The notes beneath the pieces were generated by a model. That model searched no databases, was not told where the DNA came from, and worked only from the letters and a program-made list of their open reading frames with translations. Both the position numbers and the translations under genes were made by a program. Positions 5,670 through 48,011 of a stretch of 64,000 nt of DNA are shown here, in pieces; position 1 is the first letter of the stretch; the number at the start of each line of letters is the position of its first letter. Origin of the DNA: Lotus japonicus (taxonomy: Eukaryota > Streptophyta > Magnoliopsida > Fabales > Fabaceae); NCBI RefSeq assembly GCF_012489685.1, contig NC_080046.1:26418223-26482222 (forward strand). The letters are read 5' to 3'.

Positions 5670-5670
5670 A

Positions 5671-6212: not shown

Positions 6213-6409
6213 AGAGAAGGTCTAAGTTTCAAAAAGATGGAGAAGGAAATAATGATGTATATAAAAAAAAATTAGCGAATTAATGAAATGAGTTAATGCA
6301 TATGCAGAACGTTTACCACCGGCCAAGGGAGTAAAGGTAAGCTTCAGTTACCAATAACTTATCCTCGAGAAACTGCTTCAGCATTAACGTCTGGAGACTG
6401 AATTGAGCT

Positions 6410-6418
6410 TATAAATAG
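6410..6418 (+). promoter_or_regulatory. TATA box of the ORF inside the Sirevirus
   Basis: TATAAATAG lies 62 bp upstream of the ATG at 6472 on the + strand, opposite to the direction of the retrotransposon's own transcript. An A/C-rich leader follows (6441-6471). The spacing fits a plant pol II promoter with transcription starting about 6440. Confidence 0.6.
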
Positions 6419-6471
6419 CGGTTAAATCATAACAGTCTTCACATCCCAGATACAGAAGAACACAACTAGCA

Positions 6472-6861: not shown

Positions 6862-7081
6862 TTGTAACGATGCAAATGTATGATATTGCCATTAATAAAA
6901 AAACGGTTGTTTGTTGGTTAATTTTAAAACATTTTATGATGAATAACTAATATGGAGCACATAATGGAAAATGTAATAGAAAAACATAACATAAAAAGCA
7001 ACGTGAAGAAAACATAGTTTAAAAAGAAAGGAAATTAAAACAAAGAAATAAAAACATATAAGAAGAGAGAGTTCCTAAAAT

Positions 7082-9859
7082 CTAAGGATTGGGTGTTCTC
7101 CGTAGAAGCTCTGTGCACATCTGCTTTAGCTCTTGAAGAATGACATCATGAGAGTCAAGGCGTTGTTCAATGAGATCAGTCCTAGGATCTGACTGAGGTG
7201 GAACAGATGTTGTAGCTTGATCAGAGTGAGAAGCTTGACCTGATGCAGAAGCAACTGGAATAATGCTAAAAGCTTGATTTCTGAGAGCCTCAGCTTCAGC
7301 TTGAAGTTGAGCAGCTTGTTCCAGAGGTTGCAACCTTGCAGCTTCACGTTGCTCTTCTTCAATCCTTGCAGCTTCTTCTTCTTGTTCTTTCTTCTTTCGT
7401 GCTTCTTCAATAGCAGAGTAGAGTTGTTCCCTTATCTGTTGTTCAGCCAGAAGTTCTCTTCGTCTGAGACGTTGAGTAGCAGCTTCAACACATTTTGCCT
7501 TCTCAGAGTTGAGAAACCCCATCATCAGAGGAACTTTGTCAACCATCCAAGAACACAGACGTTCCCATTCTTCAACAACCAAGTCTGGACTTGCACTTAG
7601 GTCAGTGCGACCATCCACATTTCTGATCCTTAATGATGCTTCATGATTAAATGCATTGATGCAGTCAAGGAGGGTGGTTGGTCCAGAGTAAGTGTAGGGA
7701 ATAAGGGAAAGGTTTGGTTCAGGTGATGAGGAGTGGTTCTTGCTGGCAACTTCAGAGGGAGAGCCAATCTGCAGAGTCTGAGGTGCAGAGTTATTGGTCT
7801 CAGGGTTTGGTTGAAGAGTTTCAGTCTCAGGATTCTGTGTGTTATCTGGTGAATGGTTGGAGACTGACTCAACATTCTCTTGAAGAGGAGAAAGAGGATG
7901 AGGAGGAGGAGGAGGAGGAGGAGGCATTGAGGCAAGAGGAATTGCCTGGATGGGGAAATCAGGAGGAACCAGAGGTTCTGGCCTAGGTACAGGGAAGCAG
8001 CGAGGACTAGGAACATTGATGAAATGCTCAGGGATTTCAGAGAGCATTTCTCTAGCAATTTGAAAGAATTTCCTAGAGGCTTTTGACTTGTTGGATGGAG
8101 AAGAAAATGGAACATTTGTGGGAAAGGATACAGATGGAGTAGGAGAGAGGTTGTCACGATCAGATGGATGACGTGATTGTGGATTGGTAGTGGTTTTATC
8201 AGAGTCTTGAGGTTCAGGGGCTTGTGGTGCGGAGGTTTGTTGTTCAGAGGCTTGTGGTTCAGAGGTTTCTGAATGGTATGGAAGAATGATAGGTGTAGTG
8301 GAGGCAGAGGGTTTGTTGGCTTGAAGCATTTTCCAGAGGGGTTCTTCCTCAATGGTAGGTTGAAAGAAGGAGTCTCTAGGGGGTGAAGGGTGAGAGGTTT
8401 GTTGATGAATTGGTGATGGTTCAGGATTGGTTGCATCAAGGGTTGCATCAAGCAAATTTAAATCATCATCAGAAAGGGCAGCAAACTTACTTGAAGCTCT
8501 TGCTGCAGATCTTGTGATTCTGATGGAGGGTGCAGGTCTAGCTTGTTCCTGAGTAGTTTCCATGATAACTACTTGAGGTGCAATCCTGACCTTCTTAGCC
8601 TTCTTCTTAGGCGGTGGAGCATCATCATCATCATTGTCATCACCATCAGAGGGATCCTTCTCCTCAGATGCTTCAACTTGCTTCCTCTTGGTCTTCTTCT
8701 TCCTTGGGGACTCAAAGTCTGGAGGCTCTGGGAGATTTCTGAAGAATTTGTTCACATCAATCTCAAAGCCTTGCTGCTTCAGATCCTCAAGATAGTATCT
8801 GATTGCCTCTGGATCATCAGCCTTGGACCAGAGAGGATAGTCCTTTAGAGGAATCCTTTTCCTTGGCCTTCCTTCAGCAGTGCTGGATTCAGCTTTGGTT
8901 TCGATCATGCCCATTCTTTTCAAGGATGTGGCATTGAAAGTATCTCCAACCATTGTTGTCAAGTCTTCAGAACATCCCAACCTTCGCAGGGCATGCACCA
9001 ATTTGGTTTCCACAAAGAAGTCAGAAAGCAAACTACCAAAAGGTATGTATTTTATGGCAGATTTTGGTGAAGAGGTGGGTTTGGACTTCTTGATGCACTC
9101 CTTCAGATAAGAAAAGATGAAGTAAGGCAGGCACACCTTTTTGTGGTCCTTGACGAAGAAAAACAACACCTTCTGGGTGAAGTTGATGTAATCAGGAGAG
9201 CTTCCCTTTGGTCTCTAGTTGATGCAGTGCAGAAGAATCTTGTGCCAGATTCTCAAATCAGGGTGAAGCTCCTTGGTCTTGCAATCATTCTTTCCTGGCT
9301 TCCATGTAGAGTAGAGAGCCATGTTGACTTTCTCCTTGGTGTTGGTTGAGACATTTGATTCTTGCAACTAAAACCTGTAGCCCTTGCTCGATTCTGGACC
9401 CATAAGCCTTGCAATTGTTTTCTCAGTTATGATGATCCTTTTTCCCAGAATGAAGGATACCACTTGGTGCTCATTGCAATCTGCGTGTTTCCAGAATTCC
9501 TTCACAAGCTTATCATACACAGGACCACTGATCCTTTGAAAATACCCTTCCCAGCCTTGTGCTTGAATCTCAGGACGCAGGTCAAACCCATTTGCAGCAA
9601 TGACATCAAAATCAAATCTCCATTCAGCAAGAACCTGGAGTTCTTCAGGAGCAAAGCAGCAGGTAACCACAAATTGTCTCTGAGAAAGTGGGACAATATC
9701 TTCAGCGTCTTGCACTTCATGTTGAGAACTCACAGTTGAACGAGGACGCAGAACAAGACCCACTTGCCCTGTTGGAAGACCCACAACCATTTTGGGAAAA
9801 ACTCTTCCATCGACGGAATCAGACTTGTCACCGGAGTCAGCTCTTTCTTGATTCACCAT
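7082..9859 (-). pseudogene. Sirevirus envelope-like ORF with two internal stops
   Basis: One reading frame runs from ATG 9859 to the stop at 7082 (about 925 codons), interrupted by TAG at 9370-9368 and TAG at 9217-9215. The N-terminal part (9859-9371) resembles the 'putative plant transposon protein' domain found in envelope-like ORFs of SIRE-type elements. The middle (about 8750-8540) has basic K/R-rich and acidic D/E-rich tracts, then a long P/S/T/Q-rich region with a polyproline run near 7910-7925, and a C-terminal E/A/R/Q-rich coiled coil (about 7440-7270). No convincing signal peptide or fusion segment is visible. Both stops are amber and the frame is otherwise intact over 2.7 kb, so decay is recent. 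Confidence 0.75.
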
Positions 9860-10338
9860 TGTTGAGGATGAAGGTTTGGGTAGAAGAGAAGAGGTTGAAA
9901 GCGAGAGAGAATTGAAGAAGATAAGGGTTTTGCAAAAGCAGGAGAGAGAAGGTAAAACCGAAAGTGATGGGAAACGTGTGTGCGTAGTGGTTTTAGAAGG
10001 TAACCGTTGTTCATTAAAAAGCAAAGTAAAATCAACGGTTAAAAATTAAAGACATCATTACAAACAGTTAATACACATATCACATGGTGGAGAGAAGCAC
10101 ATCTACACTCATTACAACAAATTGTCAGCACGGGAACAAGGAACGATGTATCATAGCAACTGACACACGTTTACTATCTCAGCTTCAGAGTAAGCACCAA
10201 TGGGTACTTAACCTCTGATAGAGTTACCTTATGAACTAGACATCTTCTGATAGAGAAGCATCGTAGCCAGAGGTTCTGATCCATCTTCATGCTGGACAAA
10301 AGTCCATATTCAGATTTTTCAGAATGAAATTAAATCTA

Positions 10339-13257
10339 TCATCTGCTAAGGGCTTTGTAAAGATATCTGCCCATATGATACTTTACCTCAATTTGTTTTG
10401 CCCTTGAGTGTAAGATAGGATTCTTACTCAGTGAAATTGCAGCAGTGTTATCACAATAGATTGGGATGTTGCTCTCAAGGATTTGATAATCCTCTAGCTG
10501 ATGTTTCATCCAGAGCATCTGAGTGCTGCAAATGGCTGCTGAGATATATTCTGCCTCTGCAGTGGATAGTGCAATGGTTGATTGTCTCTTGCTTGCCCAT
10601 GAGACTAAGTTACTTCCCAGAAATTGACAATATCCAGAAGTGCTTTTTCTCTCAGTTCTATCTCCAGCATAATCAGCATCACAGTAACCTGAAAGCTTAT
10701 ACTTTGATGTTTTCTTATACATCAAGCCAAGGTTAGTGGTACCATTCAGATATCTCAGGATCCTCTTAACAGCAGTTAAGTGGGTTTCCCTCGGATCTGA
10801 TTGGAAACGAGCGCATAGAAGAACACTAAACAGAATATCTGGCCTAGATGCAGTTAAGTATAGAAGTGATCCTATCATACCACGATAGAGCTTCTGACAA
10901 ACTTTACCACTTGCATCTTCTTTCTCCAGGATGCATGTAGGATGCATTGGAGTCTTAGCAATTGTAGATTCTGTCATGTTGAACTTCTTCAGAAGTTCTT
11001 TAGTGTACTTGCTCTGATGGATGTAAGTTCCTTCTGGTGTTTGATCAACTTGTATACCCAGATAGTACTTGAGTTCTCCCATCATACTCATTTCAAATTC
11101 AGCCTGCATCATCTCAGAAAACTCTTTGCATAGAGATGGATTAGCAGATCCAAATATAATATCATCAACATAAATTTGCACAATTAAGATATCATCTTTG
11201 TAAGTTTTGCAAAAAAGAGTTGTATCTACTTTACCCCTTACAAACTTATTTTCCAGAAGGAATGAGTTGAGTCTCTCATACCATGCTTTGGGAGCTTGCT
11301 TCAGACCATAGAGAGATTTCTTCAATTTGAAAACATGGTCAGGGTTCTTCTCATCTTCAAAACCTGGAGGTTGATGAACTTAGACTTCCTCTGAGATGTA
11401 ACCATTTAGGAAGGCACTCTTAACATCCATCTGATGAAGAATTATGTTGTGATTCACTGAGAATGAGATCAGTAGTCTGATAGCTTCCAGTCTTGCTACC
11501 GGAGCAAACGTTTCAGTATATTATATTCCTTCTTGTTGACTGTAGCCTTGAGCAACTAGCCTTGCCTTGTTTTTGACTACATCTCCTTTCTCATTCAGCT
11601 TGTTTCTGAAAACCCATTTGGTTCCAATCACGTGAACGCTTTGAGGTTTCTTCACTAGGCTCCAAACATCATTCTTGGAAAATTGATTCAGTTCTTCTTC
11701 CATAGCCAGAATCCAGTCCTTGTCTTGAAGAGCCTCATCAATTTACTTAGGTTCAATTAAGGACATCAATCCTTTCAGACTGAGCAGAGTCTCTTCAGAG
11801 GGTCTAAAGGCTGATCTGGTTCTGACTGGTTCATCTTTGTTACCCAGAATCAATTCCTTAGGATGAGACGCAGTGATTCTGCTCTTCTTCTGAGGTTGTG
11901 AATCAGAGGGACCAACTTCTTCTGGTTCATCTTCCTCTAGCTCAACTTCCTCCTTCTCGTTGCCACCAAAGCCAACTTCGCCTCTAGGCTTAAGTTTTAG
12001 CTCTTGGAACATACGCCTTTCTCCCGTCATGTGACGCGAGCATCCACTATCCAGATACCATGATTGGTGTTTCAGTGGAGCGATCAAGGATATCTCATTT
12101 TCATCATCTGAGTTAGGATCTTCCTCTGATGCTGATTTAGAGTTAGTTGCATCTTTTGACTCTGCTTCTTTGTCTTTGACAATAGCCATGAGTCCTTGAA
12201 CTTCACCATCAGAGTCAACATCTTCTGACTCTGATTCATCAAAAGTCACCATCAGACTTTTCTTAGTTTTGAAGTGCTTCTTTGGCTTCTTGTCCTTTTT
12301 CAGCTTTGGACAATCACTCTTGTAGTGCCCTGATTCTTTGCATTCAAAACAAGTGACTTCCTTGACTGAGGACTTCTTCTGGCCAGATGAGGATTCAAAC
12401 TTTCCTTTGGCCTTTCCAGAGACTCTGTACTTGCTCTGCCTGTGCTTCCAGATGCGGTTGAGCCTTTTGGAGATCAGAGTTAGCTCATCTTCATCAGAAT
12501 CTTCTGATGCTTCTTCAGATTCTTCTGCTTCAGCTTGGAGAGCTTTCGACTTCTTAGATTTAGACTTCTCAGATTTGGATTTCAAAGCTATAGACTTCTT
12601 CCTCAGATCCTGCATTTCTGAGCGCTTCAGTTCATGACATTTCAGTATGCTGATGAGTTCTTCTAAACTCATATGCTCAACATCTCTTGTAAGCTCTATT
12701 GAAGTCACTAAAGGCATCCAGCTTTCAGGAAGACTTCTAATAACCCTTATGACATGATCTTTTGTAGTGTAGCTTTTGTTGAGAGGTCTTATTCCAGCTA
12801 CAAGCAATTGAAATCTGGAAAACATATCCTCAAAGGACTCGTTAGGTTCCATGATGAAGGATTCATACTTCTGGATCAAGGACAGCACCTTTGATTCTTT
12901 CACCTTCTTGTTTCCTTCATGGAACATTTTCAAGGATTCAAAGATACCCTTGGCAAACTCACGATCTGTAATCTTCTGGTACTCTTCATATGAAATAGCA
13001 CTAAGAAGAATAGCTCTAGCTTTGTGGTGCTGTGAGTAAAGCTTCTTTTGCTCAGCAGTCATCTCTTATCTGGATATCTTCTTGCCATCAGCATCAACTG
13101 GACGCTCATAGCCATCCACAATGATATCCCAGAGATCTGCGTCAAAGCCCAGAAAGAAACTTTCGATTCTGTCTTTCCAATATTCGAACCTTTGACCATC
13201 GAACATAGGAGGCTTTGCATTGTAACCATCTTTTTGCGTTTCACTGGTGGTAGCCAT
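10339..13257 (-). pseudogene. Sirevirus gag-pol remnant, integrase deleted
   Basis: A single frame from ATG 13257 to 10339 is broken by stops at 13068-13066, 11745-11743, 11523-11521 and 11382-11380. Domains in order: UBN2-type gag (13257 to about 12400); a CCHC knuckle, CFECKESGHYKSDC (near 12350); a protease start with the DSGCSRHMTG active-site motif (near 12040); then directly the linker that normally follows integrase; copia RT with YVDDIIFG (near 11165); RNase H with DADYAGD (near 10680) and TAEAEY (near 10555). The protease remainder and the whole integrase are absent. Near 10360 a deletion plus frameshift removes the end of RNase H, although the usual C-terminal words remain in another frame downstream. 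Confidence 0.9.
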
Positions 13258-13329
13258 TTGTTTTTCAGACCGGCCCGGATCATTGAACACTGTTAGGTGT
13301 GGTAATCAGAACTTGCGCTACATACCAAT

Positions 13330-14381
13330 TGAAGGTATGAAAAACGATAGAAAGGGGAGGGGGTTTGAATAGCGTTTTCAGAATAAAACTTCCCACTTAA
13401 GATTTTAACAAATATTTCGAAACACAAGTAAAGAGCTTAAGATAAGAGATGGGAAAAGCACACAAGGATTTTATCCTGGTTCACTTGATGAATCACTCAA
13501 GCTAGTCCAGTCCACCCGTGAAGGTGATTTCTTCCTTCTTAGAATGAAGGCAATTCACTAATCAGAGATTTGTTACAACTGCACTTGAAACCTACAAGTG
13601 ACTAACAATATACTGACTTAGCTCACACTAAGATTCACTCTCTTAGTCTTCTCTAGGATCCGATCAACCTTGATCTCCTAAAGGTAAAAACAAACAACTG
13701 TTTAAAAAATATTGTTTACAATGAGATTGCTTCTGAAAATCTTGTAGTAAACACAATGAATTCGATGAAGAAAGATTGCTAAGAAGATTTGAATATTGCT
13801 TGTGCGTATAAGTTTCTTTGACAGCATCTTTCAGTCTTCAGCCTCTATATATACTCCAAGGATTAGGGTTTGAACATTGCATGAGAATGCTACCGTTGGA
13901 GGGCAGATCTGGGAAGCATGGATCCTCTGACCATTGTAGCTTCTGATTCTGAACTCAGAGGAGAAGTACTTGGTCTTTAGAGCCAGTTTGCTTCTGGACT
14001 TCAGAGACTTCACTTTTCAGCTTCTGGATCTTCAGAGTCTTCTAAACCATCAGAGCTTCTGAGCCTTCAGAGTGTCTGGGTTATCAGAACGTCTGGATCT
14101 TCAGAACTTCAAGTGAGTTGAGTCCACATCAGAGCTTGACTATCTTCAGATCTTCTGAAGCTTTTTTACTGTTCAGTTTGAACATAGAGATTGCGAAAGC
14201 GTTGCTAGGGTCACTCTTTAAGCAAAGTGCTTCTGATTTGTGTGAGATTATATCAAGGTCAGAGCCTGTCATGAACACACTCAGAAAACACGTTAGAGTA
14301 CCATAATTGTTCATACTAAAACGTTAACTTGTAATCATCAAAACATAGAGTTGTACTACATGATCAAAACTTGATCTTACA
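13330..14381 (-). repeat. Sirevirus 5' LTR (1,052 bp)
   Basis: Matches 4452-5669 apart from substitutions and the roughly 165-bp deletion near 13914. A minus-strand TATATATA (13853-13846) is the probable core promoter of the element. Both LTRs contain many short 'TCAGAG' and 'CTTCAGA' words. Confidence 0.9.
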
Positions 14382-14966
14382 ACCTCTTCAAGTTGCCATC
14401 CACTCCGCTCAATTACTATATTAACTTTGTCTATTATATGTATCACTCCTTCCAATTATGCTGCATATGTGTGTTTTTCCATAATTTTTTATGTCAAAAA
14501 CACCTCACATGGAAGCTAAAAGGATCTGGGGCCTGGGCTATAGAATTAAAATGATACAGATCGCTCAAAAAGAAGAATGAGACAGTTTAAAAAATTATTT
14601 GCTGATGAAGCTTTGTAGGAGAAACAATGGATTAAAAGAACACAAATTTACAAAGCAATGATGAGAAGAAAATCGATCCATGTCAAAATCTCATTAGTGG
14701 AATTATCAAATTGGATAGTAAATGGAGGGTTTTCTCACCGGAGATCAAATCTAAGCGAAATTAAGAAAACTTTCTTTGTCATCACTGTGTGAATAGAGGT
14801 GACAATTTGGAGAAACAAAACTCGGAGCAATTGCAAGATATGAGAAGAACAGGTCACGTGATGATGAATTATATGTTAATCACAACCGTTAAGTTTTACT
14901 AAAATGAAGGGTTAGGATGCGGAGTAAGTTTGAAGAGTTACTCCTAAAGTAAACGGAGCCCTCCTC

Positions 14967-19038: not shown

Positions 19039-19771
19039 TAACGTAACTTACCATGATGCACCATGTTCCTTAAAGTGATTAAGTGAATGTTAAAAATCTA
19101 TATATTGAAGGTTTAAAATTTGACTTTCTGACATATTTAAAATTAAAAATCGTAGTGTGTATTAACTTTTGTTATACACACACACACGATAGAAAATATT
19201 TTTATTGCCTGCCGGTTCGATCATGGTTTGATCATGATCTGACCATTACTCAATCGGTTAAATGGTCGGTCTAATTTGAAAAAGATTATTTTATTTTCTC
19301 TCCATTATTATCGTACATATAAATATTTATATATTTTAGATAAAAATGTCGTTTCATAAAAAGTAATATTTTCAATGGTCTACAAAGGTGGGGTTTAATA
19401 ACTAAGTGATTTGACAATCCAGAAATTAAATATTTTTTGTGATTATAAAAATGGTAGAACGAAGAGAAAATACACCTAGACTACCGAATAGGGTGTCTGA
19501 CATCCATAAAATAAATAACTGGTATAAATCAACAACAAAAATGTTTCATAGACATTTTCTTTTTCTCAATATTCAATAGACACATTGCATAGTCACGATT
19601 TTCACACCGGGGAACCAAGGATCAAACAAAGCATTTTTGTGTGCATGTTTGAAGACATTATAGAAAATTACTGTAAAGTCAAATGTCCATCACAATTATA
19701 TATTAGTATAATTGTAACAAAAAAAAATGTAACCAAAAAAAATATATTAGTGTAATTTCTATTGTGTATCC
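19039..19771. other. AT-rich spacer left of the gypsy element
   Basis: No gene seen. A short (CA)n run lies at 19176-19186. The last five bases, TATCC (19767-19771), are the TSD of the following element. Confidence 0.5.
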
Positions 19772-20463
19772 TGTAAGACCTGGATTTTCAGAACAAGTTA
19801 AGTTTCCGACTCACACGTAGAATCAGTGTAAGCGTGACAGGAGTTTGACATTTGAGAAAGATTAATGAAGAAGAAAGTTCAGGAATTGCTTGAGGAATGT
19901 TGCGTAGTTGTTTTCGGAGTTAGTGCGAGTCGTCTGCACACCTGCCTTATGGCGAGCGTGTCCAGAATAGGCTATTTCGCTCTTAAAGCAACGTTTTGAG
20001 TGAGATTTCGAACTCTCGGAAAATTTAAAGATTCTCTTTATTTTTCCATCGACCAGCGTTTCATTTCGGAACTCTGGACTGTACGCACGATAGGTTTCAC
20101 TTTCCGGAAGCTCGACGACTCTAATTTCTTTGCTTTGAAACCCTAATTTTGAGCGAAGGATGATGACTTTTTCTATTCTGGACTTCTAACGAAGATTCCG
20201 TCCGCGCTGCCAGATTTGTTTCAACATTTCCAATTTTTTTTCTGTTGGAAGTTTTGTCGTCTGAGCATCACAGCAAAAAGTAGTTTTTCGGGACAGACTA
20301 ACTTACACCGCTTTTGGCGTTTTGGATATCGTTTTTCCCAAATCTTAGATAATTGTTTTGAGTTCTGGAATTCCGACGCCAGAATCTCTCTTAGAATTCC
20401 TTGGTGAACGTGCTGCAAAAATCGGAATCGCGAAATTTTCATTTTCCCGCGATTTCGCCTGCC

Positions 20464-20472
20464 TATAAATAG
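20464..20472 (+). promoter_or_regulatory. TATA box in the gypsy 5' LTR
   Basis: TATAAATAG in a GC-richer context, conserved in the other LTR (28468-28476). It predicts a leader of nearly 3 kb before gag. Confidence 0.6.
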
Positions 20473-21886
20473 CTCGAAAAGCAAAAATTCCTTCATTTTC
20501 TTCCTATTGTGGCCGAATTTCGTGGAGAGCAAGGGGGGAGGAGATTTTCGCGAAAACTTGACTGATCTTCGTGCAGTTCGTCCCTACTTCTAGGTATCGA
20601 GGTAACTAACACGATTCCTACCTCTGATTGTTGTTTCTGTTGCGTTTCTGAAGTCGTTTCTGTGCTCACAGTTTTGAGCTTTTTCTAAAATTGTCCGTTT
20701 TCTTCGATTTCTTGCTTGGGTTATGTTCTCTAGGTTCCCATGAGCCTAAAACCTCTGTCAGTAAACGCTGATTGTGATCCAGTTGTTCAGGATCTGAAAA
20801 ACTGTTTCAAAACCCTTTTTGCTCACATTTCGAAACTTTATTGTCGAAAAGACTTAATCTGACTTCGTGCCTTTAGGATTTGTTGTCACGGATGTCATGA
20901 GGATCGTTGTTGTCAAATTTGTTTTCAGAACTGATAACTTTGAAGTTTTGAGCCTTTATTTTGGACCAAAATGCCCCTGGATAGTCATATTTCGACCCGA
21001 TTGTCCGAAAATTGTTCCGACAGTTTCTTTGCCTTAGTTTTATCCTAAAACTACCTTGTGAATTGATTTGATCAAAGAAAAAGAGCCGAAGCCCTTTTTC
21101 CTTTGAGGCCGTGGACTATTTCCTTTAGGGGGGAGTTTTTCGGTTTCGAAAACTTGTCTTTTCATACCTGATTGTCCTATTCTGAAGCTTTAATGCTTTG
21201 TCTATCGTTTATGTATTGTTTTGCGATCGAACTAATCGATTTTGTTTGGATTCTGCTTTGTTTTTCTCCGAGGTTCAGTTGAGGGAACTTTGGAAGACTC
21301 AGAGCAATTGTTTGAGGAGAACTTTGTTTGCGAAGCAGGAACAGCTCGAGGTTAGGGCAACTTACATATATATTAGCTATGATTGCATGATAGGCATCGA
21401 TAAATTCGACTTATGCTTTGCTATGATATTGATTATGATGATGGTTTATTGTTATGAATGTTTTCATAACTTATGATGTGATGTTGTGTTGAATTGAGCG
21501 TTTTGACGCGACTTCGGAGTGGAGATTCATTGATCTGGTGATCTTTGATATTTTGGGTTGGATGAGCAACCCTAGGCAAGTCCAAATGAGGGGTTTGAGA
21601 CCTAGCCTGGTTGGTATTTGTTGGTTTACTTAGACTTTCCCCGGGAAACTTCTTTTGGGTGGTTGGTTTTCGGAAAACGTAGAAGGATTATAATTTCGAA
21701 AACTAAAGACTTGGGAAACCTAGATTTTGAGAAATAAACTCATAACCTGACTAATCTGATTTGAAATCATTTTTATTAATGTTTAAGTATAGGAAAACTG
21801 AAGGGGAAAATATTTACGAAAGACGGGGAAAAGTCGACCTTTGTTGTGAGTTAATGGAATTGGGGAAAGCCACTAAGGTGAGCTAT

Positions 21887-22135
21887 GGTGATGATTGAAA
21901 GTCACCGAGTACTTTACGTACTCTTGTTGATGGGGTTGTGTTGTATTGACCGACATTAATCCCTTGGGTTCTCTTGTTGTTGGAGCGGTGTTGTATTGAC
22001 CGACACTTAGCGCTCTTGTTGTTTGGGCTGTGTTGTATTGACCGACACTAGACCCTTGTGTATTCTTGTTGGTGGAGTTGTGTTGTATTGACCGACACTT
22101 ACTCCGAGTTGTGTTGTATTGACCGACACTAACTC
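21887..22135 (+). repeat. Hairpin array A in the gypsy LTR
   Basis: Five copies of GTGTTG-TATTGAC-CGACAY form a 6-bp stem with a U.G pair and a constant 7-nt loop. Each is enclosed by a different outer stem: GGGGTT/AATCCC (21932-21963), GAGCG/CGCTC (21983-22015), GGGCT/AG(A)CCC (22025-22055), GGAGT/ACTCC (22074-22105), GAGTT/AACTC (22106-22135). Two further hairpins precede them: GGTGA/TCACC (21887-21906) and GAGTAC/GTACTC (21907-21923). The same array is in the other LTR at 29890-30138. Confidence 0.8.
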
Positions 22136-22221
22136 ATGGGTTTGTTGAGATTGGGTTGTGAGCTAAACACTTTCGTGGTAAGGGCGATTCGTTGTTTGGC
22201 TAACCACGTTGCATTCAATCG

Positions 22222-22465
22222 GGTGAATAACGGGAATGGTTCACCTGTGCATATCATGGTGAATAAAGGGAATGGTTCACCTTGCATAAATGATGAATAA
22301 CGGGAATGGTTCATCATATGGTGAATAACGGGAATGGTTCACCAAGGATGAATAACGGGAATGGTTCATCCAGGATGGATTTCATCCAGGATGGATAACG
22401 GGAATGGTCCATCCATAGTGAAGAACGGAAATGCTTCACTTGTGGCGAACGGGAACGCGTCACAA
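22222..22465 (+). repeat. Hairpin array B (AACGGGAATG loops) in the gypsy LTR
   Basis: Seven full units and one short one. The loop core AACGGGAATG is constant while stems differ: GGTGAA/TTCACC (22222-22245, 22258-22281, 22320-22343), ATGATGAA/TTCATCAT (22290-22317), GGATGAA/TTCATCC (22346-22371), GGATG/CATCC (22373-22387, short loop), GGATGGA/TCCATCC (22389-22414), AGTGAAG/CTTCACT (22417-22440), TTGTGGCG/CGTCACAA (22440-22465, with a G.U pair and loop AACGGGAACG). In most units the loop is closed by T.G; in the unit at 22417 it is G-C. Paired changes on both sides of the stem point to a maintained RNA structure. Confidence 0.85.
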
Positions 22466-23402
22466 ATCCGGATTCATATTGTGCATTTCACGCATACATT
22501 CATGCTGACTGAGACTGTGTGCTGTTTGTTTATTGAAGCAATGTTAGAGCCATAACATGCTAGGATTACTTATATGCTTATATAACAACTTATATATATA
22601 CCCTGTCACATGTTGAGTGTATATGTACTTATTGCTGTGAGTTGACCCTAGCGCCTTGGCTTTGTTTGTATGTTTGTGTTTGGGCGGTCGGCCTGCTGCC
22701 AGATGTCGATGGCCGACTGGTTCTCGGTGGTCTCTCCCTCGGGGGGGGATCAGATATGAGCTGCAGGATCGGGATGCCTCACCGCTTGGGTGATCGATGT
22801 TGCTGGTCACCGGGCGACGTATCGGGGAAGGATCATGGAGGACCGGACTGACGAGCGTGGACGTCTGACGAAAGGAGTTCTATGGCGCATGGAGTTGAGC
22901 TTCAACTTGCCGACTTCAGATCGTTGTGGGTTTGGCACTGGGAGGTTAAGTTTGGGCAGGCGTCATGTTTTGTGTAGAGCTCTGATTCGTTTTGCTTTTG
23001 GGATCGCGTAGGTTTCCGACGCATGACTTTTCGTGTGGTTCTCTTACTGAGGGATCACAGTGAGTCAGTTGGACCATAGGGGTCTTTGCTTAGGCCATAT
23101 TGAGGCCGACTTTCTCCTAGTGGTTTGTAATTATAATTTTCTCACTTACACTTCTGGGTCTGTATATATTTGCCTACGGGCACACTGCTTTGGAGTCACT
23201 GCGAGTGCGCGTGACATGGAGTGCAGCTGAGGCTGTACATGTATATATGTTGTATATCGGTTAGTTTAGTAGTTGGGTTTTGTCTTTACTTCCTTATCGT
23301 TTTGATTTAAAGGAAAGAAAACGAAAAAAAAATTACCTGTTTTCCGCGTAAAGATTATTTTTGGTTACTAAAGTGACACCTGGAAATCGGGGTGTTACAT
23401 TG

Positions 23403-23414
23403 TGGTATCAGAGC
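23403..23414 (+). promoter_or_regulatory. Primer binding site of the gypsy element
   Basis: TGGTATCAGAGC, the standard complement of the plant initiator tRNA-Met 3' end, three bases after the LTR end. Confidence 0.85.
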
Positions 23415-23596
23415 TTAGTCGAGTCTTTTGGGAGTCTTTGGGGAATAGGTCTTCTGTGCTAGGTTGTGTGACTCTGCAAAAAGTGAAAATTGATTGTCTG
23501 CAGAGCGATTTTCGCTCTAATTGTTTGCGTTACTACTTAATCGGATTGAGTGGTTTGTCTAGTGCTACCGTATGGCTAGTACTAATCGGACGTTTG

Positions 23597-24394
23597 ATGA
23601 GATATAGGATGGTGGACCTTAACCGGATGGCGGAGGCAATAGCTACACTGATCGAGGCAATGATGAACCAGGCTGCGGAAGACGCTTATATGCGCGCTGA
23701 AGAGGCTGCACGTGAGCATCACCAACGACTGATGGCGACGGCGATGTATCAACAAAGAGGAATGAACCGAACAGGAGCTGGGGGACCAATAAGATCAGGA
23801 TCTCAAGGCTACAACAGAAGGGAGAGCTACCATCAGTGGGGACCGTATCAGCGTTTCAAGGGAAGAGATCTTATCTCAAGAGTCTACAAACCAACGACTG
23901 CTGATACTGGAGGGGAGCCAGTTGGTGACAAAGGTGTGACATGTACTCGTTGTGGAAAGTTTGGGCATTTTGCTAACAAGTGCTCAGTGACTGGACGGAG
24001 ATGCTTCAAGTGTAACCGAGAGGGGCATCTGGCTGTGAACTGCAAGACACCCCAGGAGGAAACGTCTGATAGTAAGATGAAAGGGAATGATGCTACCGAA
24101 GGGACAGGAAACAAGACTTCGGGAAGAGCAGTGACGTGTTACAGGTGCAGGGAAGTAGGGCACTATGCTAGTAAGTGCAAGATCAAGGGAAAACTATGCT
24201 TTAATTGCAACCAACCGGGACATTTCTCCAGAGATTGTAAGGCACTCAAGGGCGAATCATCAAGGAATGTTGGGAAAGGAAAACAACTTGCTACAGAGGA
24301 AAGGATTCATATCAAGGAAGGAGCAAGAGTTGAGGAGTCGAACGAGGAAGAACGTGGGAACGATGGTAATATTTTAACTGTTCTCGTATTCTAG
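23597..24394 (+). pseudogene. Shortened gag with four CCHC zinc knuckles
   Basis: The open frame from ATG 23597 (or 23609) gives about 265 residues. A short N-terminal segment typical of gag is followed at once by the region just before the knuckles; the central capsid (retrotrans_gag) domain is missing, so an internal deletion is inferred. Four CX2CX4HX4C knuckles follow: CTRCGKFGHFANKC (about 23942), CFKCNREGHLAVNC (24002), CYRCREVGHYASKC (24137), CFNCNQPGHFSRDC (24197). They form two pairs of similar spacing, as if one pair had been duplicated. The tail is charged (K/E-rich). The upstream frame back to 23402 only reads through the primer binding site and is not the real start. Confidence 0.75.
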
Positions 24395-24399
24395 AATAA

Positions 24400-25391
24400 C
24401 TTACTCTTTTATATTCAAGCGAGTGTGACGTGCCTAACTTGTATTTACTACTTAGACTATGATCCTATGATTATTATCCCTAGTAGGACCTTATTCGAAG
24501 TTGCTCGTGATTTAACTATAGAGGTTACACGAGATCTAGAATAGCACGCGGAGCTAGGGAGTTGTTTTACCGAGGAGTCGATAAGGAAGCTAGGATCTCA
24601 GGGGAATTCCTTATGGGTACGATACGTAGGATTTTAGGGCGTTTAGTTTTGAAGCGGATTCGATGGAGGATCTTTCGGCAAAAGGATTCATTCGACCAAG
24701 TGTATCACCGTGGGGAGCGCCAGTGTTGTTAGTCAAGAAGAAGGACGGAAGGTTGAGATCGTGGGTGGATTATCGACAATTGAACAAGGCGACGATCAAG
24801 AACAGATACCCGTTGCCGAGGATAGATGATTTGATGGACCAACTACGAGGGGCTACCGTATTTTCCAAGATAGACTTGAGGTCAGGCTATCGTCGGATCA
24901 GAGTGAAGATTGAGGATATACCGAAGACTGCTTTCAGGACACGTTAAGGACACTACGAGTACCTAGTGATGCCATTTGGAGTGACGAATGTACCTGCTGT
25001 TCTCATGGATTACATGAACCGCATCTTTCAGGAGTTCTTAGATCGGCGTGTGGTGGTGTTTATTGAGGACATATTGATCTATTCGAAGGACACGAATAAA
25101 CATGAAGGACATTTGCGCCAAGTTTTACAAGTGTTGAGAGAGAAAAAGCTGTATGCGAACCCTTCCAAGTGTGAATTCTGGCTGGAGGAAGTCAATTTCT
25201 TAGGCCATGCTATCTCGAAGGAGGGCATAGCTGTGGATCCGGCGAAAGTGGAGACTGTTTTGGCTTGGGAGCAACCGAAGATGGTGACAGAGATCAGAAG
25301 TTTTGTGGATTTAGCTGGATATTATAGACGCTTCATTGAGGGATTTGCCAAGATTGTTGGACCTTTGACTCAATTGACGAGGAAGGATTAA
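24400..25391 (+). pseudogene. Decayed protease/RT region with mutated active site
   Basis: 24400-24650 retains protease-like scraps with several stops. From 24663 one frame shows the Ty3/gypsy RT fingers and palm: [13 protein letters not shown], then [10 protein letters not shown] and SKIDLRSGY, a TAA at 24945-24947, then MPFGVTN and FIEDILIYS near 25060. The catalytic pair, normally two aspartates (F-I/V-D-D), reads E-D, so the first metal-binding Asp has become Glu. The frame ends at TAA 25389-25391 in the RT connection. Confidence 0.85.
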
Positions 25392-27775
25392 TCTTTTACA
25401 TGGATTGAGGGTGTGTGGTTCCGTAGCGGAATCGTTAGGAACTTGATATCAGGATATTTGTGATTACTGGATGTTAGGAACTCATTGTCTGTTCCAGTGG
25501 GTTATTCTAAATTTCCACCTTCGATGTATTAGGCCTGATCAACCTAATATTGAGGGGGTGATATTCGGAATCACAGGTGGTTATGGACTTTGATAGAAGG
25601 ACGGGTAAGATGAATTTGAATTGATTGAGGATTAGTCGGATTTGGGAGGAAAGTTCGTGTTAAGCATTTGATTGTAAAAGATTAAGATTTGAATCTGTGG
25701 AAGTCGATGAGTGTCGTATAGACATTGATTGGTTAGTTCGTGTGATTACTCCAAGTAGAGGTAGACCAAGTCAAGAGATTTAGTGCTGGAAAAGTATTAA
25801 GTAGTTTCTCGGAAGTTATGAAGTCATAGGTTATGTGATTGCTGAGGGGAGTTGTTAGAGACTAAATAAGTTGGATTTAATCAGGTTTTAGATGATAGCT
25901 TGATGGTAGCGAGATTGAGAAGAATTAGCTCTGAACTAGATTGTTATAGTCGAGTTCGAGGAATAAGTTTTGCTAAACGTTTGATTAATATGTGGAGACA
26001 TTATAGTCTTAAGAGATGAAGTTTCGCTTGAAAAGTGTTGAATTAATGATTAAGTTGGAGAAAGAAAGTTTTAGCATAAGTTGAATACTTGAGGTTGTTG
26101 ATATGGATTCCAAAGATATATGCTGAGATTACTAAGTGAGATTTACTAAGTTGGATTGAAATCTTAGGGTTAAGATTGAATCTTGAGAGCCGAGAATCAC
26201 GTACGAGTAGGAGATCTTATGGTTGTAGGTGTGACAATAGGAGTTGAATCTTAGAAGATTGAAGACCTGAAGGTGAGTTTCGGGTTAAGACCATTGAGGT
26301 GTAGTATAAGAGAGATCTTGAAGTAAGGGAATTCTGGGTTGTGTGGAGTGTTAAGGTTGGTGATCGATTGATGTTGATTATGAGGTTGCGGACATAATGA
26401 CCATGTGATAAGATTTGAATGATGTTAGCATAATAAGTTGTGATTATGGATATCAGGACCAAGGGGTGAGTGTGGAAGCATGACGACACTTATCAGGTCG
26501 TTTGGGTAAGTGAAGGAGTTATAGTTTTAAGAAACGGATATTCATTTAAGAAGTATTGAAGGATTAAAGGTCATTAGAGGACCAAACTTGGTGAAGGTTT
26601 AGGTTTTAAATCTATGAATGTCTATCTAAGGTGTGTAGGACTCGAAGTTTGTCAGAATTTGATTGAGGGATTAAGAGGTTGATTGACAAGATGGTGATTG
26701 AGTGACAAAAAGGAAAGTGTTAGTATTAAGATGAATACTTGAAGTTGTTATGTTTGGACAAGTTTCTTAGAGCTTAAGAGTGGATGAAACTTTGTTATGG
26801 ATTTTGATGATGCATATTACGGTTAACAAGTGAATTTTACTAAGTTGAATGAGAATCCTAGGGCTAAGGTTGACCTAATGAGCTGAGATTCATGTACACA
26901 TAAGAGATTTAGTGGTGTTAGCGGTTACGATAACAGTTAAATCTCAGAATGTTGAAGGATTGGATGATAAAATGGCTAGTTAAGTCCCTTGAGGTATAGT
27001 TATGATTTAATCTTCTAGAGGATAAGTCTCGATTTGTGCGAAGTGTTAGGGATTTCAGTAAGTGTAAATAGGTTTGAGTGAGGGAAGTTCTAAGGAAGAA
27101 GACGATAATACTGGATTGTTAGATATTAAGAAGAGGATTATCTTATAAGTTGTTGACAAATTGATGTTGAAGGGGATAAGATTAGTGAAGGACAAGAAAT
27201 AAGGACATAAGTCGAGCTTTAATTCGAATAGTGACTAAGTAGAAGTGTGATTTCTTGGTGTGTGTAAAAATAGTTACGAAGTTAGAGGTGTTTTAATGGA
27301 CTAGCGGTTTCCAAGGGGGAGGATTCGTCTAGAAGTTATCGAACGAACAAGTGGAGTTTTGGACTGTAGATGAAGATCACGAGGACAAGTTGAGTATCTA
27401 CTTTGAGATGACAGAGAGGCACTGAGTTTAAGAAGAATTCCGGACGACCGAAAGTAAAGAAGTAAGTGGCTAAGGTTGTGCGACTGCACGGAGTGCCAAC
27501 CGGTATCATTTCAAGCAGAGGTCCGACGCAAGTAATCGAGTCAGACGACATGAGGTTGAATGATGTTTTGTCTTTTGAGACGCCGACAGTTAGCAGTGGG
27601 GATAGAAGAGTGAAACAGTTAAGGGGAAAGCAGATTGCTTAAGTAAAGATTATGAGGAACAATGACACAGGCACTACTACATGAGAATTGGAAGATAAGA
27701 TCGAGGAACTGTATTCCGGACTTTTCGCAGAACTCTGAGTTTCGAGAACGAAACTTTCTTTTTGGAGGGGAGTAT
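25392..27775 (+). other. Non-coding interior of the gypsy element
   Basis: About 2.4 kb where RNase H and integrase are expected, but no motif (HHCC, DDE, chromodomain) and no long ORF is visible. The + strand is G/A/T-rich and C-poor. Two segments, about 26040-26310 and 26710-27000, are diverged copies of each other: both carry 'gaatacttgargttgtt', 'actaagttg' and 'gccgag/gctgag..atgtac' blocks in the same order, at a period of about 660 bp. Confidence 0.6.
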
Positions 27776-30700
27776 TGTAAGACCTGGATTTTCAGAACAA
27801 GTTAAGTTTCCCACTCACACGTAGAATCAGTGTAAGCGTGACAGGAGTTTGACATTTGAGAAAGATTAATGAAGAAGAAAGTTCAGGAATTGCTTGAGGA
27901 ATGTTGCGTAGTTGTTTTCGGAGTTAGTGCGAGTCGTCTGCACACCTGCCTTATGGCGAGCGTGTCCAGAATAGGTTATTTCGCTCTTAAAGCAACGTTT
28001 TGAGTGAGATTTCGAACTCTCGGAAAATTTAAAGATTCTCTTTATTTTTCCATCGACCAGCGTTTCATTTCGGAACTCTGGACTGTACGCACGATAGGTT
28101 TCACTTTCCGGAAGCTCGACGACTCTAATTTCTTTGCTTTGAAACCCTAATTTTGAGCGAAGGATGATGACTTTTTCTATTCTGGACTTCTAACGAAGAT
28201 TCCGTCCGCGTTGCCAGACTTGTTTCAACATTTCCAATTTTTTTTCTGTTGGAAGTTTTGTCGTCTGAGCATCACAGCAAAAAGTAGTTTTTCGGGACAG
28301 ACTAACTTACACCGCTTTTGGCGTTTTGGATATCGTTTTTCCCAAATCTTAGATAATTGTTTTGAGTTCTGGAATTCCGACGCCAGAATCTCTCTTAGAA
28401 TTCCTTGGTGAACGTGCTGCAAAAATCGGAATCGCGAAATTTTCATTTTCCCGCGATTTCGCCTGCCTATAAATAGCTCGAAAAGCAAAAATTCCTTCAT
28501 TTTCTTCCTATTGTGGCCGAATTTCGTGGAGAGCAAGGGGGGAGGAGATTTTCGCGAAAACTTGACTGATCTTCGTGCAGTTCGTCCCTACTTCTAGGTA
28601 TCGAGGTAACTAACACGATTCCTACCTCTGATTGTTGTTTCTGTTGCGTTTCTGAAGTCGTTTCTGTGCTCACAGTTTTGAGCTTTTTCTAAAATTGTCC
28701 GTTTTCTTCGATTTCTTGCTTGGGTTATGTTCTCTAGGTTCCCATGAGCCTAAAACCTCTGTCAGTAAACGCTGATTGTGATCCAGTTGTTCAGGATCTG
28801 AAAAATTGTTTCAAAACCCTTTTTGCTCACATTTCGAAACTTTATTGTCGAAAAGACTTAATCTGACTTCGTGCCTTTAGGATTTGTTGTCACGGATGTC
28901 ATGAGGATCGTTGTTGTCAAATTTGTTTTCAGAACTGATAACTTTGAAGTTTTGAGCCTTTATTTTGGACCAAAATGCCCCTGGATAGTCATATTTCGAC
29001 CCGATTGTCCGAAAATTGTTCCGACAGTTTCTTTGCCTTAGTTTTATCCTAAAACTACCTTGTGAATTGATTTGATCAAAGAAAAAGAGCCGAAGCCCTT
29101 TTTCCTTTGAGGTCGTGGACTATTTCCTTTAGGGGGAGTTTTTCGGTTTCGAAAACTTGTCTTTTCGTACCTGATTGTCCTATTCTGAAGCTTTAATGCT
29201 TTGTCTATCGTTTATGTATTGTTTTGCGATCGAACTAATCGATTTTGTTTGGATTCTGCTTTGTTTTTCTCCGAGGTTCAGTTGAGGGAACTTTGGAAGA
29301 CTCAGAGCAATTGTTTGAGGAGAACTTTGTTTGCGAAGCTGGAACAGCTCGAGGTTAGGGCAACTTACATATATATTAGCTATGATTGCATGATAGGCAT
29401 CGATAAATTCGACTTATGCTTTGCTATGATATTGATTATGATGATGGTTTATTGTTATGAATGTTTTCATAACTTATGATGTGATGTTGTGTTGAATTGA
29501 GCGTTTTGACGCGACTTCGGAGTGGAGATTCATTGATCTGGTGATCTTTGATATTTTGGGTTGGATGAGCAACCCTAGGCAAGTCCAAATGAGGGGTTTG
29601 AGACCTAGCCTGGTTGGTATTTGTTGGTTTACTTAGACTTTCCCCGGGAAACTTCTTTTGGGTGGTTGGTTTTCGGAAAACGTAGAAGGATTATAATTTC
29701 GAAAACTAAAGACTTGGGAAACCTAGATTTTGAGAAATAAACTCATAACCTGACTAATCTGAATTGAAATCATTTTTATTAATGTTTAAGTATAGGAAAA
29801 CTGAAGGGGAAAATATTTACGAAAGACGGGGAAAAGTCGACCTTTGTTGTGAGTTATTGGAATTGGGGAAAGCCACTAAGGTGAGCTATGGTGATGATTG
29901 AAAGTCACCGAGTACTTTACGTACTCTTGTTGATGGGGTTGTGTTGTATTGACCGACATTAATCCCTTGGGTTCTCTTGTTGTTGGAGCGGTGTTGTATT
30001 GACCGACACTTAGCGCTCTTGTTGTTTGGGCTGTGTTGTATTGACCGACACTAGACCCTTGTGTATTCTTGTTGGTGGAGCTGTGTTGTATTGACCGACA
30101 CTTACTCCGAGTTGTGTTGTATTGACCGACACTAACTCATGGGTTTGTTGAGATTGGGTTGTGAGCTAAACACTTTCGTGGTAAGGGCGATTCGTTGTTT
30201 GGCTAACCACGTTGCATTCAATCGGGTGAATAACGGGAATGGTTCACCTGTGCATATCATGGTGAATAACGGGAATGGTTCACCTTGCATAAATGATGAA
30301 TAACGGGAATGGTTCATCATATGGTGAATAACGGGAATGGTTCACCAAGGATGAATAACGGGAATGGTTCATCCAGGATGGATTTCATCCAGGATGGATA
30401 ACGGGAATGGTCCATCCATAGTGAAGAACGGGAATGCTTCACTTGTGGCGAACGGGAACGCGTCACAAATCCGGATTCATATTGTGCATTTCACGCATAC
30501 ATTCATGCTGACTGAGACTGTGTGCTGTTTGTTTATTGAAGCAATGTTAGAGCCATAACATGCTAGGATTACTTATATGCTTATATAACAACTTATATAT
30601 ATATACCCTGTCACATGTTGAGTGTATATGTACTTATTGCTGTGAGTTGACCCTAGCGCCTTGGCTTTGTTTGTATGTTTGTGTTTGGGCGGTCGGCCTG

Positions 30701-31408
30701 CTGCCAGATGTCGATGGCCGACTGGTTCTCGGTGGTCTCTCCCTCGGGGGGTGGGGGATCAGATATGAGCTGCAGGATCGGGATGCCTCACCGCTTGGGT
30801 GATCGATGTTGCTGGTCACCGGGCGACGTATCGGGGAAGGGTCATGGAGGACCGGACTGACGAGCGTGGACGTCTGACGAAAGGAGTTCTATGGCGCATG
30901 GAGTTGAGCTTCAACTTGCCGACTTCAGATCGTTGTGGGTTTGGCACTGGGAGGTTAGGTTTGGGCAGGCGTCATGTTTTGTGTAGAGCTCTGATTCGTT
31001 TTGCTTTTGGGATCGGGTAGGTTTCCGACGCATGACTTTTCGTGTGGTTCTCTTACTGAGGGATCACAGTGAGTCAGTTGGACCATAGGGGTCTTTGCTT
31101 AGGCCATATTGAGGCCGACTTTCTCCTAGTGGTTTGTAATTATAATTTTCTCACTTACACTTCTGGGTCTGTATATATTTGCCTACGGGCACACTGCTTT
31201 GGAGTCACTGCGAGTGCGCGTGACATGGAGTGCAGCTGAGGCTGTACATGTATATATGTTGTATATCGGTTAGTTTAGTAGTTGGGTTTTGTCTTTACTT
31301 CCTTATCGTTTTGATTTAAAGGAAAGAAAACGAAAAAAAAATTACTTGTTTTCCGCGTAAAGATTATTTTTGGTTACTAAAGTGACACCTGGAAATCGGG
31401 GTGTTACA
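27776..31408 (+). repeat. 3' LTR of the gypsy element (3,633 bp)
   Basis: Near-identical to the 5' LTR; visible differences are scattered single substitutions and one or two small indels (for instance the G-run near 30747). It has the TATA box at 28468-28476 and hairpin arrays at 29890-30138 and 30225-30468. In this copy the second hairpin of array B keeps the consensus loop where the 5' LTR has a C-to-A change. Confidence 0.9.
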
Positions 31409-31413
31409 TATCC

Positions 31414-32035
31414 AAACATATTCCTTGACTTAAAAGAAAAAAGAAAAAGTCTCACAAACACTAGAGTATGTTTGGATACCTTCATTAAGTATGAAATTCT
31501 AAAAGATGGGAGAAATTGTGGCCCGACGGGCCATCCCCCGATGGGCCATCCCAGTCCCTTCACCCCTGAATGGAAATATGGTTTAATAACGACTTCTAAT
31601 AACCGCAAAATTTAGCAGGAGTTATAAACTGTCAATAAATTATATGTCGATTGATTATTTTTCTAAAAGTAGATATGCACCTATCATTACCCCATCAGCA
31701 AAGGTGATCATAGTTTAAATTGGTTGAAATCTTTCTCTCCTTTTAGATGGAAATAAAATTTCATTTTTCATTGAGACTTTTTTTCCACTCATACTTGAGA
31801 AAGATAAGAAGATAAATGAGTGATATGATAAGTGATGTGATAATTAAAAATGCATAAAGAAAAATGATAAAAAATAAGTGAAAATGATACGAAAGAAAAA
31901 GAAAAATATGAATCAATCATTACTCTTTCAATCGTATTGTCATTTGATCTTTGTTATGTTCGCACATCTATTTAATTTACCTATCATTTTCATTTTTTTC
32001 TTCATATCTCTCATATATTTCTATTACATCTCTCA
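31414..32035. other. AT-rich spacer
   Basis: No gene seen. A short GC-rich patch with the repeated word 'gggccatccc' lies at 31520-31550. Confidence 0.4.
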
Positions 32036-34057: not shown

Positions 34058-35146
34058 TAAGAAATAAGAACTAGTATTTGAAGAGCATCTCCAATGCTAG
34101 TTCTTATTTCTTGGTTCTTAGCACTATTCATGTGGGCTCGTATTGCCACATGTGCTTAAGCAACTCTCAAACAATTTTGCTCCAACCATAAGTTCTTAGT
34201 TCTTACCAGTATTCATTTGGTCCCACCAACCACATTATTTATACATTTTATTTTCATAAAGTAAAAAACAAAACTCATAAAGTAATAAAGTAATTTAGAT
34301 GAGAGAGAAATAATTAATATTTTAAACTAAGAACTCAAAAAGTAAAACTCCTTATATAAGAACTGAGTTCTTATTTTTAAGAACTAAGAGCTCCATGTCA
34401 GCACCTCCTATGGTAAAGTTCTGCATCTCCAATGCAAGGTTCTTAGTTTTTATTTTGGAGTTAAGAACTAAGAACTAAGAACTTTATCATTGGAGGTGCT
34501 GACATGGACTCCTTAGTTCTTACAAATAAGAACTCAGTTCTTATATAAGGAGTTTTGCTTTTTGAGTTCTTAGTTTAAAATATTAATTATTTCTCTCTCA
34601 TCCAAATTACTTTATTACTTTATGAGTTTTGTTTTATTACTTTATGAAAATAAAAAGTATAAATAATGTGATTGGTGGGACCAAATGAATAGTGGTAAGA
34701 ACTAAGAACTAAGAACTCATGGTTGGAGCAAAATTGCTTGAGAGTTGCTTAAACACATGTGGCAATACAGACCCACATAAATAGTGCTAAGAACTAATAA
34801 ATAAAAGCTAGCATTGGAGATGCTCTTAGTTATTAATTCTTAACTCAAAAATAAGAACTAAGAATCTTGCATTGGAGATGCTCTAAGGAGTCTTACTTTT
34901 TGAATTTTTAACATAAAAAATTATTTTTTCTCTCTAATCCAAATTACTTTATGAGTTTTGTTTTGTTACTTTATGAAGAAAAAAATATAAATAGTGTGGT
35001 CGGTGGGACCAAATAAATAGTGTTAAGAACTAAGAACTCATGGTTGGAGCAAAATTGCTTGAGAGTTGCTTAAGCACATGTGGCAGTACGGACCCACATG
35101 AATAGTGTTAAGAACTAAGAATTAAGAACTAGCATTGGAGATGCTC

Positions 35147-38503: not shown

Positions 38504-38557
38504 TTGGCGCCCACCGTGGGGCCCTGGATACTTTCCTAGGCTTCAATTTTCACCGCA

Positions 38558-46764: not shown

Positions 46765-46776
46765 TTTCAAAGTGTC

Positions 46777-48006: not shown

Positions 48007-48011
48007 GTGAT

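Follow-up and report, generated by a model that had tools for sequence, protein, structure and literature searches.

The packaging and dimerisation signals of retroviruses and LTR retrotransposons, such as psi and the Ty1 TIPIRT, comprise several stem-loops in the 5′ leader, as described in the available parts of two sources (PMC5454406, PMC7395439). According to the same excerpts, the nucleocapsid part of Gag takes exposed guanosines and mini-elements are moved by helper proteins (PMC5454406, PMC7395439). Repeated inverted repeats are also described from plant LTRs: in the accessible portion of the account, the palindromic boxes of Sireviruses have constant CGG-CCG arms and a variable middle, and lie upstream of the TATA box (PMC2829016). 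LARDs, together with further non-autonomous LTR elements of plants in which RNA structure is conserved, form another near system; as far as their partial description goes, LARDs encode no protein products.

The subject of this study is a hairpin array in an LTR of Lotus japonicus, referred to as array B, within a window of 64,000 nucleotides (the whole stretch of DNA analysed). It would resemble psi and TIPIRT in placing several stem-loops in a 5′ leader, as presumed here, but those signals are sets of unlike stem-loops, whereas array B presents one loop eight times on differing stems. It shares repeated inverted repeats with the Sirevirus boxes, but its arms vary, its loop is constant and it lies downstream of a TATA-like box; the constant CGG-CCG arms of the Sirevirus motif are absent. 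Unlike array B, the alphavirus packaging signal belongs to an RNA virus and lies in a coding region, and no relation by descent is claimed. The host element also differs from LARDs, as its internal region holds a 261-codon mini-Gag ORF and a reverse transcriptase (RT) remnant.

Literature searches, outside which most subscription papers lay, returned no description of such a hairpin array. Structured leaders and packaging signals are themselves already known; as far as these searches and the partly available sources show, a plant LTR with a loop-identical, stem-variable run of hairpins represents a new form of them. Little is known of the way in which LTR elements of plants select their own RNA, or of how non-autonomous ones borrow proteins.

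The host element and its mini-Gag

Array B is carried by a complete LTR element at positions 19772–31408 of the window, with the following features.

19772..23399, + strand: 5′ LTR, with ends TGTAAGACC...GTGTTACA (self-comparison, ends read directly)
20464..20471, + strand: TATA-like box TATAAATA, LTR position 693 (pattern scan)
23403..23414, + strand: primer-binding-site-like sequence TGGTATCAGAGC, just inside the 5′ LTR (sequence read)
23609..24394, + strand: mini-Gag ORF, 261 codons, with an N-terminal part and four CCHC zinc knuckles
24630..25388, + strand: RT remnant, two open pieces parted by a stop, with RVT_1 (generic) in both
27776..31408, + strand: 3′ LTR (self-comparison, ends read directly)

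The two LTRs are 3628 and 3633 bp long and 99.34% identical in self-comparison, and a 5-bp target-site duplication, TATCC, flanks the element at 19767–19771 and 31409–31413. The primer-binding-site-like sequence is presumably a match to plant initiator tRNA-Met. The TATA-like box lies 1.76 kb upstream of array B, in agreement with the 1.7 kb given in an earlier first-pass annotation of this DNA; TATATA-type matches were also found by pattern scan at 22591 and 22593, downstream of both hairpin arrays described below. A strong skew of G over C, 0.37–0.54 per kb, is seen at 25000–28000 in the internal region.

The mini-Gag is the first ORF of the element and gives a Pfam zf-CCHC match with four CX2CX4HX4C motifs; no Pfam match to Retrotrans_gag or another capsid domain was found in the ORF. 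The host is a Ty3-type element present in many copies, and its mini-Gag has four knuckles but no capsid. Its intact LTRs, TATCC duplication, recent mobility and RT broken by a stop mark it as a non-autonomous LTR retrotransposon. Given the young insertion and the interrupted RT, foreign proteins probably mobilised the element.

A genome search with the window mini-Gag gave 146 scored matches of 9015 candidates, 86–100% identical and including the window's own copy. A stop was present in 65 of the 146 and absent from 81, so that the mini-Gag may be dispensable in cis. Two other Lotus proteins, P0001 with four knuckles and P0003 with three intact ones, have the same layout as the mini-Gag. The P0001 family, about 50% identical to the window mini-Gag family, yielded 128 scored matches among 9912 candidates, and 117 of these 128 had no stop. 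Capsid-less four-knuckle Gag proteins were in this way observed as a large family in the genome, most or many with open frames.

The Gag relatives of the host are presumably Tekay/Del-type Ty3 elements. Among these relatives is the Lotus protein P0004, which, unlike the mini-Gag, combines a capsid domain (Retrotrans_gag) with two knuckles. By comparison, the host element lacks the capsid part and has twice the number of knuckles and an interrupted RT.

Other elements were observed elsewhere in the window. At 4452–14386 lies a Copia-type element on the minus strand, with LTR-like repeats, an RT piece and a gag that encodes a single zinc knuckle. A Ty3-type element (36646–48561) has long gag and pol frames; an additional ORF, on the minus strand, gives a match to PF04195 (putative gypsy type transposon). 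MITE-like inverted repeats form long self-complementary stretches at 34065–34842 and 49363–49631. The window also includes a host gene, whose best-matching named relatives are from legumes.

Two hairpin arrays in the LTR

Array B consists of eight full hairpins and one loopless hairpin at 22220–22465 on the + strand of the 5′ LTR, with the common loop AACGGGAATG.

22220..22247, + strand: hairpin B1, 9 pairs, loop at 22229–22238
22258..22281, + strand: hairpin B2, 7 pairs, loop at 22265–22274, AAAGGGAATG here and AACGGGAATG in the 3′ LTR
22290..22317, + strand: hairpin B3, 9 pairs, loop at 22299–22308
22319..22344, + strand: hairpin B4, 8 pairs, loop at 22327–22336
22346..22371, + strand: hairpin B5, 8 pairs, loop at 22354–22363
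22373..22387, + strand: loopless hairpin GGATG-GATTT-CATCC, inside an exact 16-bp duplication, present in the + strand fold
22389..22414, + strand: hairpin B6, 8 pairs, loop at 22397–22406
22417..22440, + strand: hairpin B7, 7 pairs, loop at 22424–22433, G-C closing pair
22440..22465, + strand: hairpin B8, 8 pairs, loop AACGGGAACG at 22448–22457
30223..30468, + strand: second copy of array B in the 3′ LTR, with seven loops AACGGGAATG and one AACGGGAACG

The first-pass annotation had placed the array at 22222–22465, where the sequence is as it described. It had counted seven full stem-loops; the constant loop and the differing stems stand, but the number is eight, with the loopless hairpin in addition. 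The closing pair of the loop is T.G in six units and G-C in two, much as had been stated. The copy in the 3′ LTR and the second array upstream, array A, went unmentioned there. Array B clearly grew by duplication; a tandem repeat at 22365–22396, the exact 16-bp duplication, holds the loopless hairpin. The loop changes of B2 and B7 are confined to the 5′ LTR copy, being absent from the 3′ LTR and from four other genomic copies (L028–L031; + strand loci alone were used in this comparison), and therefore probably arose after insertion.

With at most one mismatch, the loop AACGGGAATG occurs at 20 places in the window against 3.5 expected. Sixteen of these belong to the two array copies and carry 7–9 flanking pairs; the other four carry none. 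At least 7 pairs around a 10-base loop were found outside the arrays at 146 of 63,373 positions. Array B has the top hairpin density on the + strand of the 64 kb (87% of 250 bp), and the next-best value after its two copies is 55%. An Rfam search of 20000–32000 gave no matches at E up to 1, and hence no described RNA family.

Pairing within the window is nearly complete. All 56 inner cells (p1–p7) of the eight units are paired, as are 62 of 64 (96.9%) when p8 is included, while slid registers gave 31–53%. Two-sided changes affect six of the eight stem pairs, a result that, like the paired share of the 64 cells, was matched by none of 500 shuffles of the 3′ letters, and the claim that the stems change on both sides together thus held; the number of further pair types was equalled by 5 of 500 shuffles. 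RNAalifold, which had been suggested as a check, recovered the same eight stem pairs. In the arm-swap test each unit's own arms were best (4 of 40,320 permutations as low, these being ties of like arms; 1/720 once redundancy was removed). Between columns, variation in the 3′ LTR copy falls on 1 of 10 loop positions and 12 of 16 stem positions (p = 0.004).

The upstream array A (21932–22135) consists of five hairpins with the constant core GTGTTG-TATTGAC-CGACA, whose outer stems differ between units but pair within each.

21932..21963, + strand: hairpin 1, outer stem GGGG.., core GTGTTG-TATTGAC-CGACA; −12.2 kcal/mol; core repeats
21983..22015, + strand: hairpin 2, outer stem GAGCG/CGCTC; −12.1 kcal/mol
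22025..22055, + strand: hairpin 3, outer stem GGGCT/AG-CCC; −12 kcal/mol
22074..22105, + strand: hairpin 4, outer stem GGAGT/ACTCC; folds
22106..22135, + strand: hairpin 5, outer stem GAGTT/AACTC; −11.6 kcal/mol; included in the arm-swap test
29935..30138, + strand: second copy of array A in the 3′ LTR

As a whole stretch, array A folds unremarkably (z = −1.59; 8 of 100 shuffles as good) and its hairpin density is within the range of shuffles, so its case rests on the arm tests. In the window, the own arms were the best of 120 permutations. Over the diverged copies described below and the window, 38 distinct outer arm pairs were collected, and own partners beat all 20,000 shuffles; one unit with an empty arm adds a constant to all sums in this test. 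The outer stems of array A thus behave like the stems of array B, varying yet staying paired, with less data.

The + strand of array B has a more stable fold than any of its 200 shuffles (z = −3.96). In its minimum-energy fold the loopless hairpin is formed along with B3 to B8; B1 and B2 are paired otherwise. The − strand also folds well against its own shuffles (z = −4.47). A unit model scored all 16 array B units on the + strand at 20–47 bits, and no − strand score exceeded 14.6 bits. Since the eight 5′ LTR units served to build the model, it is informative only for the strand contrast and for absence elsewhere in the window. T.G and G.T pairs are present at p1–p8 of the eight window units and A.C pairs are not; over the 34 distinct arm pairs described below (p2–p8), G.T exceeds A.C modestly, by 14 to 8. 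The first-pass annotation had left the choice between a folded RNA and cruciform DNA. A sense-strand RNA is most likely the selected fold, favoured by the unit model and the missing A.C pairs, and DNA cruciforms are less likely, though the other strand folds too. Viewed by eye, the loop as RNA, AACGGGAAUG, may perhaps form an AA bulge, C-G and G.U pairs and a GGAA tetraloop; energy folding yields this GNRA form only in B8.

Two further structural ideas were considered. A Dicer-type long hairpin is rejected on the stem length of 7–9 pairs in array B, and kissing between the two loop types would, by eye, involve only about four weak pairs.

Stem and loop variation in diverged copies

A genome search with array B yielded near-identical places (the best 40 of 1567 candidates were scored, all 99–100% identical), and mini-Gag matches were therefore used to reach diverged copies. 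The sample comprised 20 of the most diverged mini-Gag matches (751 bases each) and 20 more (441 bases each). Loop-bearing units were found in all 20 copies of the first sample, at 2–9 per copy, and in 8 of 20 copies of the second. The other 12 had no loop-bearing unit in their 441 bases, and only one of them (L132) matched the window LTR there.

Units were picked by the loop alone, leaving out seven with two loop mismatches, which gave 199 units in 28 of the 40 copies. Their p1–p7 cells are paired in 1383 of 1393 cases. The 34 distinct arm pairs have 253 of 272 cells paired, against a shuffled maximum of 232, and beat all 20,000 arm shuffles. The first-pass annotation had named chance-level pairing among family copies as the outcome that would speak against its proposal; in these diverged copies the pairing is far from that level. 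Under a looser rule allowing two loop mismatches, 206 units in 34 copies were obtained, 190 with 7/7 pairs and 16 with 6.

Variant arm pairs in the copies include TGGTGAAT/GTTCACCA, TGGTGAAG/CTTCACCA, CGATGAAG/CTTCATCG, GGATGAAT/GTTCATCC and GGATGGAT/GTCCATCC. The B6 stem, GGATGGA/TCCATCC in the window, is GGATGAA/TTCATCC in many other copies. Over the 199 units the closing pair is T.G in 142 and G-C in 57, and two copies (L118 and L123) have G-C in every unit found, with stems largely intact. The B8-type unit, with ACG replacing AUG in the loop, recurs in many copies.

When orthologous cells of the 28 copies were compared with the window, pairing survived 31 two-sided changes (13 of them one B6 change) and 10 one-sided ones, and was lost with 3 two-sided and 17 one-sided changes. 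These changes are non-independent events counted without a tree. One misaligned copy with two units (L110) was retained, and it contributes 9 of the 17 broken one-sided changes, all three broken two-sided ones and one of the 31 kept.

Divergence from the window is lowest in the loop, at 1.7% (34/2043), followed by the stem at 3.8% (109/2877), the flank at 6.9% (360/5237) and the linker at 7.7% (97/1259). In L118, 26% of aligned stem sites and no loop sites differ. Array B is thus a set of tandem hairpins with a nearly fixed loop and stems that vary but stay paired, both in the window and in diverged copies. That its pairing and loop are under selection is well supported, in line with the selected fold that the first-pass annotation had proposed.

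The related P0001 family provides a comparison. Among 40 of its 3-kb leaders, none had such a loop hairpin (at most 2 loop mismatches, at least 5 pairs) and none had the exact array A core; hairpin coverage on the + strand never exceeded 49% in any interval scanned. Parts of the window LTR were matched by 38 of these 40 leaders (not by L070 and L103). A mini-Gag of this type therefore does not need array B, and the arrays are no general part of mini-Gag elements.

One member of the P0001 family, L095, has LTR blocks in common with the window on both sides of the array site, and a 494-residue open frame runs across its mini-Gag match. At 1050–1250 on the element's strand, the position equivalent to array B, a weaker series of short hairpins was observed (GGAAAGTGTGCTGCTTTCC, GGAGCGTGCTGCTTC, AAAGCGAGATGCTTT). 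An arm test on this series (17/5040) is biased, since the units were picked by eye. Between two conserved LTR blocks, L095 thus seems to bear a different hairpin array, whose loop also differs.

Candidate functions of the arrays

The reading we prefer, tentatively, is that the multi-copy loop is a multivalent dock for a zinc-knuckle Gag, serving dimerisation and packaging of the selected leader RNA. Judging from the TATA-like box, both arrays would lie within a long LTR-encoded leader of the genomic RNA. The sense-strand fold would present many copies of one loop, in which three consecutive G are available and a GGAA tetraloop may form; the repetition suggests avidity. The docking protein could be the capsid-less mini-Gag, a helper's Gag or both. 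Such a Gag would pick out array-bearing RNA for dimerisation and packaging, and an element with a broken pol might thereby be mobilised by proteins from elsewhere. Template switching may supply the paired changes in the stems.

By analogy, the natural candidate for a partner is a zinc-knuckle Gag, since proteins of this type, such as nucleocapsid in the available part of the source (PMC7395439), take up guanosines that are exposed. The same excerpt reports that in HIV-1 replacement of a GGAG loop abolished binding but affected packaging little (PMC7395439). Further points against a Gag dock are the lack of such hairpins in the 40 P0001-family leaders, the 12 second-sample copies without a loop-bearing unit in the bases examined, and the stops in 65 of 146 mini-Gag matches.

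As partners, host proteins with an effect on translation or stability are almost as good a fit. A selected RNA structure may, through host RNA-binding proteins, serve translation of the leader, export, stability or poly(A) control without any part in packaging. This is possible, although we consider it less probable than a Gag dock. All of the covariation evidence fits it equally, and the related family has a mini-Gag without having the array. The presumed leader holds 63 ATGs in 3.1 kb and would thus need special translation if the mini-Gag is made from it, and the loop itself contains an AUG in the context GGAAUGG, which we take to be favourable for a translation start. Against a role of this AUG, the units with ACG in its place recur across copies; nothing ties the array to the ORF, and the mini-Gag frames are interrupted in 65 of 146 matches.

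A more specific form of the preferred Gag-dock reading is doubtful but worth stating. The arrays may be a family-specific address label, in which a loop on drifting stems acts as a high-avidity dock for a mini-Gag adaptor and couples non-autonomous RNA to foreign particles; such a label would turn over between families.

Template switching has also been proposed, in the accessible text of one study, to give rise to hairpins with compensatory changes and to preserve them without selection (PMC8794818). Applied here, tandem duplication and template-switch mutation at inverted repeats would keep the arms complementary with no selected function. The published proposal and the clear expansion of the array by duplication favour such an origin, but it leaves the fixed loop and the rise in divergence from loop to stem to linker unexplained. 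Arm copying would also make Watson-Crick pairs, whereas p1 is T.G in most units. In a crude simulation, run both with arm overwriting and without it, 5 of 48,000 runs resembled the observation; four of these five combined the lowest mutation rate with the highest switching rate in the range used. We regard an origin without selection as improbable.

Slightly less credible still is an element acting as DNA, with binding sites or cruciforms as an enhancer. Each of the five array A units contains TTGACC and [AG]CCGAC, and TTGACC and ACCGAC look to us like WRKY and DREB sites; the good folding of array B on both strands would also suit cruciforms. However, a fixed spacer with varying arms, as in array B, is the reverse of a dyad binding site. 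The G.T pairs on the + strand and the lack of A.C at p1–p8 in the window also disfavour it (more weakly over the 34 arm pairs), as does the position of the arrays 1.5–1.7 kb downstream of the TATA-like box.

Within the array, one loop on naturally varied stems amounts to a ready-made mutational experiment, in which the loop bases seem to matter and the stems need only pair. A multicopy family (the best 40 of 1567 array candidates scored), a legume model and an adjacent zinc-knuckle protein make the packaging question directly testable.

That the array descends from a coding repeat (one frame reads Asn-Gly-Asn-Gly), with the loop fixed by the protein, is very hard to credit. This reading was rejected because the unit spacing in array B (36, 34, 28, 27, 43, 27 and 24) does not keep the frame, although viral contigs bearing the loop twice seem to hold in-frame repeats of this sort. 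In GTDB genomes, the loop with an arm stub gave 5 matches against about 7.5 expected by chance, with stems of 3–4 and no second loop within 300 bases. IMG/VR held no exact match to the loop with arm stub or to the array A core. A two-loop pattern was found there on 20 contigs at 26 places, all 26 with stems of 0–2 pairs, and these places are apparently coding repeats.
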